Positions 6,245-8,708 of a DNA stretch of 64,000 nucleotides are shown in pieces. The DNA lies in NCBI RefSeq assembly GCF_024707485.1, contig NZ_CP102602.1:1860001-1924000 (forward strand), read 5' to 3'. How positions within the stretch are numbered: position 1 is the stretch's first letter; each line of letters starts with the position of its first letter. Under the pieces are notes generated by a model. The model saw only the letters and a list, made by a program, of their open reading frames with translations. It was not told the origin of the DNA and made no database searches. Source of the stretch: Thermococcus thermotolerans (GTDB lineage Archaea > Methanobacteriota_B > Thermococci > Thermococcales > Thermococcaceae). The translations under genes were made by a program, and so were the position numbers.

Positions 6245-6676
6245 TTACCCTCCTTTTGGCTCTCTGAGTGTGTTGATGGCTTTAAGAGCTTGTCCAGGAG
6301 TTATCCTGCCGAGTTCGGTCCCGTCGAAATCGGAGTCAAAGCTGACTATCTTCAGGTTGTACAGTTCCGCAAGCCTGTACTGATAGGCATCGTCGAAATC
6401 CAGGTTGAACCTTTTCATCACATCAACTAGCCCTCTAAACTCCAGAGGGGGCAGTCGCAGAAGTGTAAAGCCACCGTTCAGGGTTATGTCTTCGACAAAC
6501 TCCGGGAAGATCTCCTCCTTCCCTGCCCGTGTCATAATGATGCCTATTGAGTACAGTGTGAAATCAGAGAGATATATGAACTCCGACGGCGTTTTCCTGA
6601 GAAACTCCTCGGCAGTATCTGAGTTCTCCTGTTCCAGCAGAATCTCAAGGAAAACGTTGGTGTCCACCAAGAACAT
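6245..6676 (-). CDS. vapC: VapC-type PIN-domain toxin
   Basis: This is a PIN-domain ribonuclease, the likely toxin of a VapBC pair. The N-terminus FLVDTNVFLE carries the first acidic ligand, a central Glu follows, and the C-terminal part has FDDAYQ and SFDSDFDG with the remaining acidic residues. VapC toxins cleave tRNA or rRNA. I chose the ATG that overlaps the vapB stop (TGATG), giving 143 residues. An ATG four codons upstream is possible, but it sits in the GGTGG site. It lies between herA and mre11 on the same strand and carries the mre11 ribosome binding site in its tail. Confidence 0.85.
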   Translation of the reverse strand: MFLVDTNVFLEILLEQENSDTAEEFLRKTPSEFIYLSDFTLYSIGIIMTRAGKEEIFPEFVEDITLNGGFTLLRLPPLEFRGLVDVMKRFNLDFDDAYQYRLAELYNLKIVSFDSDFDGTELGRITPGQALKAINTLREPKGG

Positions 6677-6879
6677 CAGCCCCACCATTCAACTGCCTTG
6701 TGCTGGAGTTCAACTGAAGTATACTCATCCTTCAGCTCCCTGAGGGCACCTTTCCACTTCATCTTGGGCCCCTTGCCCCTCTTGGAACCCCTCCTTTCAA
6801 GGAGGAATTCGATGTAGTCCAAGACTTCTCGCTTGAGTTCATCGGGAAGCATATCAAAGAGCCTGTGTGCATCCTCCAT
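6676..6879 (-). CDS. vapB: VapB-type antitoxin, DUF2281-like
   Basis: This small acidic-basic protein of 67 residues begins with a helical segment (LPDELKREVLDYIEFLLER) typical of DUF2281 and VapB antitoxins, followed by a basic linker and a C-terminal tail that would wrap the PIN toxin. The ATG at 6879 is chosen because the GTG three codons upstream lies within a near-perfect AGGAGGTGA binding site. That site straddles the herA stop codon. VapB normally neutralises VapC and binds its own promoter. Here no separate promoter is evident, so it is probably read from the herA promoter. Confidence 0.8.
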   Translation of the reverse strand: MEDAHRLFDMLPDELKREVLDYIEFLLERRGSKRGKGPKMKWKGALRELKDEYTSVELQHKAVEWWG

Positions 6880-6894
6880 GATACTCACCTCCTG

Positions 6895-8694: not shown

Positions 8695-8708
8695 GCTTTA
8701 AACTTTAC
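8695..8708 (-). promoter_or_regulatory. herA operon promoter (BRE/TATA)
   Basis: On the minus strand the sequence AAAGTTTAAAGCC lies about 40 bp before the herA start, suitable for TATA/BRE with a leader of roughly 15 bases that contains the ribosome binding site. Confidence 0.5.

Follow-up and report, generated by a model that had tools for sequence, protein, structure and literature searches.

Between herA and mre11 of Thermococcus thermotolerans lies a pair of small genes that resembles a VapBC toxin-antitoxin module. Does this pair belong to the work of the repair operon, or has it merely settled at a joint of that operon? We analysed a window of 64,000 nucleotides (contig NZ_CP102602.1, positions 1,860,001-1,924,000, assembly GCF_024707485.1), to which all coordinates below refer. 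The genes follow each other on the minus strand in the close-packed order herA-vapB-vapC-mre11-rad50-nurA, with the following features:

8695-8708, minus strand: candidate promoter of the operon, the highest-scoring BRE/TATA-like site upstream of herA (9.9, at quantile 0.9996 of the window)
8661-6895, minus strand: herA, directly upstream of the pair (974.9 bits with the NCBIfam HerA equivalog, cut-off 970)
6893-6885, minus strand: putative Shine-Dalgarno sequence of vapB, AGGAGGTGA, starting one base past the herA stop (from the sequence and the junction listing)
6879-6676, minus strand: vapB-like antitoxin gene, DUF2281 (Pfam PF10047, E = 2.4e-15)
6676-6245, minus strand: vapC-like PIN-domain gene (Pfam PIN PF01850, E = 7e-16)
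6253-6248, minus strand: putative Shine-Dalgarno sequence of mre11, GGAGGG, in the final vapC codons (from the sequence and the junction listing)
6240-4897, minus strand: mre11, downstream neighbour of the pair (NCBIfam Mre11_Pyroc, 767.7 bits, cut-off 600)
4916-2250, minus strand: rad50 (NCBIfam PRK03918, 1108.7 bits, cut-off 700)
2253-907, minus strand: nurA (NCBIfam NurA_Pyro, 714.3 bits, cut-off 650)

The four repair genes are thus on one strand and each scores above its NCBIfam equivalog cut-off, as expected of a HerA-Mre11-Rad50-NurA operon. The strength of the DUF2281 and PIN matches indicates that the two small open reading frames are not chance ones. With the TA_VapB model, vapB gives 1.7e-6 and stays under the cut-off. 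The position of the pair between herA and mre11 and on the same strand, as the initial annotation had it, is therefore confirmed by gene order and by profile matches. The vapB stop and the vapC ATG have one base in common (TGATG). We observed that the listed GTG start of vapB (6888) falls within the vapB Shine-Dalgarno sequence, which makes the ATG at 6879 more likely as the start. It had also been proposed that the vapB ribosome binding site straddles the herA stop; this is not the case, since AGGAGGTGA begins one base after it, and what straddles the herA stop is the Shine-Dalgarno sequence of mre11 in the empty joints of relatives (TGAGGTG..ATG). The mre11 ribosome binding site, in turn, is indeed found in the vapC tail.

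Promoters were sought with a BRE/TATA matrix trained on 35 upstream regions of the window (median score of the training regions 9.7). With this matrix no convincing promoter was found before vapB, the best score being 5.7 against 9.9 before herA, in agreement with the earlier remark that the pair has no visible promoter of its own; it is thus probably read from the herA transcript. A candidate site inside vapC, 54 nt before mre11, reaches 8.5, a score to be read against a window-wide density of about 1.6 sites per kb at 8 or above. Near the same place of vapC, comparable scores were obtained in another occupied genome (8.1 in G050) and a weaker one in a third (6.0 in G043), both on conserved Gln-Ala-x-Lys codons, and a weak internal mre11 promoter within vapC is conceivable from the sequence. 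The main-text passages concerned of the transcription-start papers on T. kodakarensis and T. onnurineus (PMC4247193, PMC5316973) state nothing on the repair operon. A joint transcript of herA, vapBC and mre11 is what these data would predict. The toxin had been described as co-translated with break-repair enzymes; the tight packing and the insertion within the operon speak for this, and co-translation itself is probable.

We then surveyed 94 Thermococcales genomes; mre11 is present in 91 of them, and herA and mre11 stand in one piece in 89. An intact pair occupies the herA-mre11 joint in four of these 89 (T. thermotolerans, G043, G050 and G069) and a decayed one in four others. In the remaining 81 the joint is empty, herA and mre11 abutting, overlapping by a few bases or leaving a gap of 0-16 nt; these joints often read TGA-GGTGTTAGC-ATG or nearly so, and the mre11 ribosome site spans the herA stop. 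The wrecks differ from each other. G061 retains an intact vapB and has a large deletion inside vapC; G057 has vapB only, the stop of which abuts the mre11 ATG; G024 has a stub of the vapB end with its stop overlapping the mre11 ATG; G072 has a decayed vapC reading without catalytic motif. Often, therefore, vapC has gone first, as in G061, G057 and G024. In the nearest relative, G071, the flanks are mostly 95-98% identical to those of T. thermotolerans and the joint is empty, with a clean 9 nt. Four intact copies, four wrecks and 81 empty joints, that of the nearest relative included, suggest that the pair has been gained and lost. The possibility that the same pair is a fixed one in nearly all relatives, which would have spoken against the initial annotation, is not borne out by these counts. 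The same survey weakens the proposal that loss of the pair would disturb mre11, since clean and decayed joints both retain a Shine-Dalgarno sequence and a start for this gene.

Is the second gene of the pair a toxin? Its architecture is that of VapBC: a PIN toxin-like gene with a small antitoxin gene directly upstream and overlapping it. The acidic residues D5, D96 and D114 are present and invariant in relatives, but the Asp-Glu-Asp-Asp tetrad is incomplete, the position of the catalytic Glu being occupied by Ser43, which is invariant in 11 aligned relatives. By alignment, the 26 PIN paralogues of T. thermotolerans have Glu (24) or Gln (2) at this position. For this reason we class the genes as a VapBC-like PIN/DUF2281 pair rather than as a proven canonical VapBC, and VapC as a putative toxin whose sequence departs from canonical VapC chemistry. 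A sequence search of the PDB with VapC gave nothing at E 0.01; a VapC profile gave weak PIN matches, among them PAE2754 of Pyrobaculum (1v8p/1v8o, E = 0.22), a match that implies a common PIN fold. PAE2754 has the canonical Glu (..TIYEAG..), in contrast to the Ser of the family at the herA-mre11 joint (..TLYSIG..). A single-sequence structure prediction had a mean pLDDT of 40, too low for use. The Glu-to-Ser active site appears to mark a deep VapC-like subfamily of putative toxins. Ser at this position was also seen in other families of the class Thermococci.

Other operons harbour such pairs at their joints as well. The joint between the 5-oxoprolinase subunit genes pxpA and pxpB was measured in 82 genomes: it is of at most 60 nt in 49, of 61-300 nt in 12, of 301-700 nt in 20 and longer in one, thus above 60 nt in 33 of the 82. 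Another VapBC is intact there in about 19 genomes, T. thermotolerans included, where the gaps are long, and scraps are found in about 13, the shorter gaps containing mostly vapB alone or the vapB end, reaching the next start. In several genomes the vapC end stands where the original joint read CGGTGA-GACC-ATG, and the pxpA stop is followed by a TATA-like GTTTATA. Relatives of the subfamily at the herA-mre11 joint stand directly before rfbC in six genomes, G057 among them, and scraps of vapBC in three others. These copies, from Thermococcus and Pyrococcus, have 56-62% VapC identity and are likewise tightly coupled to the gene that follows (at 5 nt in Thermococcus); they differ in lying in a rhamnose operon, at another joint, and in being common to several species. 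Upstream of rfbC in two further genomes, the sequence reads like the tails of other PIN genes (..FDKTDIG.., ..LATLDEDF..), so that pairs of different VapBC families may have used the joint before rfbC. In T. thermotolerans itself, the joint between the dTDP-rhamnose genes rfbC and rfbD holds a further VapBC, of another family.

Among the approximately 26 VapC-type genes of T. thermotolerans, at least six (about a quarter) are flanked on either side by a gene of the same strand no more than 60 nt away, a count made on genes with readable neighbourhoods and varying with the mechanical choice of open reading frames. As a rough estimate of our own for the chance level, if the 6-7 pairs so placed were spread over the approximately 450 tight same-strand joints of the genome, one of them would fall on any of the three repair-operon joints in a few percent of genomes, close to the observed frequency (4 of 89). 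The repair operon is not special as a site for vapBC.

These observations bear directly on the proposal that break repair is linked to growth arrest, the toxin being produced together with the repair enzymes so that arrest accompanies repair. The common strand, the tight packing and the lack of a separate visible promoter are what one would expect of such a coupling, and the pair is intact and constrained where it occurs, the dN/dS of vapC being about 0.1. Such purifying selection means that the pair does something, a point against reading it as a pure hitchhiker. However, a link to repair is hard to reconcile with a pair that is missing from 81 of 89 joints, even in the nearest relative, and decayed in four, with VapBC placed likewise in the unrelated 5-oxoprolinase and rhamnose operons, and with Ser in place of the catalytic Glu in this subfamily. 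We regard the coupling as very improbable, and the proposal is not supported. The alternative offered with it, a neutral addiction insertion, is nearer to the evidence.

The pair is probably, rather, a hitchhiker, since in relatives modules of this kind have come into close-packed joints of several unrelated operons again and again and decayed there. With a probability of about 0.72 we hold it to be a mobile module, co-translated with its hosts, that occupies operon joints. A promoterless VapBC-like pair would settle at the stop-start joint of herA and mre11; ribosomes ending herA would start vapB at the Shine-Dalgarno sequence that the pair brings along and pass through the overlap into vapC, the end of which would be both ribosome site and coupling point for mre11. 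As the vapC tail supplies this site, downstream translation would be preserved and the host operon would keep working. During decay, vapC would often be lost first, leaving an antitoxin stub coupled to the next gene, until finally everything is gone. The herA-mre11 joint would then be one of several that VapBC pairs enter, hold for a time and decay at, and the pair would not have been recruited for repair. A bolder extension, which we put forward tentatively and with some doubt, is that Thermococcales VapBC are specialised for entry where the stop of one gene in a co-translated operon meets the start of the next: the final codons of vapC would form the ribosome site of the following gene (GGTGA-N4-ATG, GGAGGGTAA-N4-ATG), the orphan antitoxin would stay coupled after toxin loss, and the herA-mre11, pxpA-pxpB, pre-rfbC and rfbC-rfbD joints would stand out as hot spots in a general remodelling of operons.

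The stubs also bring to mind a regulatory spacer, in which the antitoxin, or the translation of the pair, tunes the level of mre11 and the PIN protein is no toxin. Antitoxin stubs still coupled to mre11 and to pxpB after loss of the toxin would fit such a role, as would the missing catalytic Glu; yet most genomes do without any spacer and the other acidic residues, D5, D96 and D114, do not vary, which makes this explanation highly unlikely.

How the pair reached the joint was approached through its history. The occupied genomes fall into three subclades of the trees of the type-A operon, one of two operon types in the genus. The pair may have entered once, long ago, in the ancestor from which the type-A operons of the genus descend, to be inherited and then lost many times, or it may go back to several independent insertions or recombination imports. 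A single clade of all on-site copies is not rejected (AU test, p = 0.36), which leaves room for one old insertion followed by many losses, and the groupings in the VapBC tree, G000 (T. thermotolerans) with G043 (and G050) and G061 with G057, partly match the operon tree. Such a history requires, however, 7-8 state changes, and the empty joints retain an ancestral GGTGTTA motif, which is also present in type-B operons and in Pyrococcus and would not come back through deletions. In addition, T. thermotolerans and G043 differ at synonymous sites by 0.77 in vapB and 0.49 in vapC, compared with 0.28-0.29 in herA and mre11, suggesting that the history of the pair is unlike that of its flanks. We consider the single insertion a serious candidate at somewhat less than even odds. 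The G+C content of the pair is 43-52%, that of the flanks 53-58%. As for a vehicle, we found no match among plasmids, phages and viral contigs. The insert consists of vapB and vapC only, and neither transposase, integrase, inverted ends nor target duplication was found at it; no target duplication was visible by eye at the joints. No recombination tract was detected around the joint, where the mismatch density is not clearly unlike that of pairs of empty joints.

Insertions of this kind are already known. According to the passages concerned of Makarova et al. 2009 (PMC2701414), the lysine biosynthesis operon of Thermus thermophilus contains an inserted HEPN-MNT module in strain HB8 and none in strain HB27. 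As here, a two-gene toxin-antitoxin module lies in a conserved operon of one relative and not of another; the toxin family and the operon are different, and those passages do not describe recurrent occupation or remnants. The PIN-DUF2281 pairs of Synechocystis, such as sll0205/ssl0385 and sll1092/ssl2138 (PMC4963859), are alike in architecture, with the same antitoxin-toxin order; location in a conserved operon is a feature of the herA-mre11 pair and not an established one of the Synechocystis pairs. In the literature, searched mostly outside subscription journals, we found no paper on vapBC in the repair operon or on repeated settlement of such pairs at operon joints in Thermococcales. Taken alone, the herA-mre11 case adds one to the toxin-antitoxin pairs that lie in operons. 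Together with the pxpA-pxpB and rfb joints, it becomes a countable natural experiment, with the same joints empty, occupied or wrecked across about 90 genomes, which permits one to ask how selfish modules enter conserved operons with translation unbroken. It is also a warning that operon neighbourhood is a poor guide to the function of toxin-antitoxin genes.

The genus has two versions of the four-gene repair operon: relative to T. thermotolerans, herA and mre11 of one are about 66-98% identical at the amino acid level, and the other version is about 30-45% identical. All four genes switch together, which suggests replacement of the whole operon between lineages. One could then imagine that the pair acts by addiction, poisoning cells that lose the region and so keeping the divergent second type from taking the place of the operon. 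That two types with about 40% identity coexist and apparently displace one another, the pair being found in one of them only, would suit this role; against it, the pair itself is repeatedly lost while the operon stays, and 18 of the 26 type-A joints in the closest group of the same genus lack it. We find this explanation unlikely. In G071, G048 and G037, nurA is only about 65% identical to that of T. thermotolerans (907-2253) whereas herA is 94-98% identical, which suggests an exchange of nurA by itself in these three genomes.
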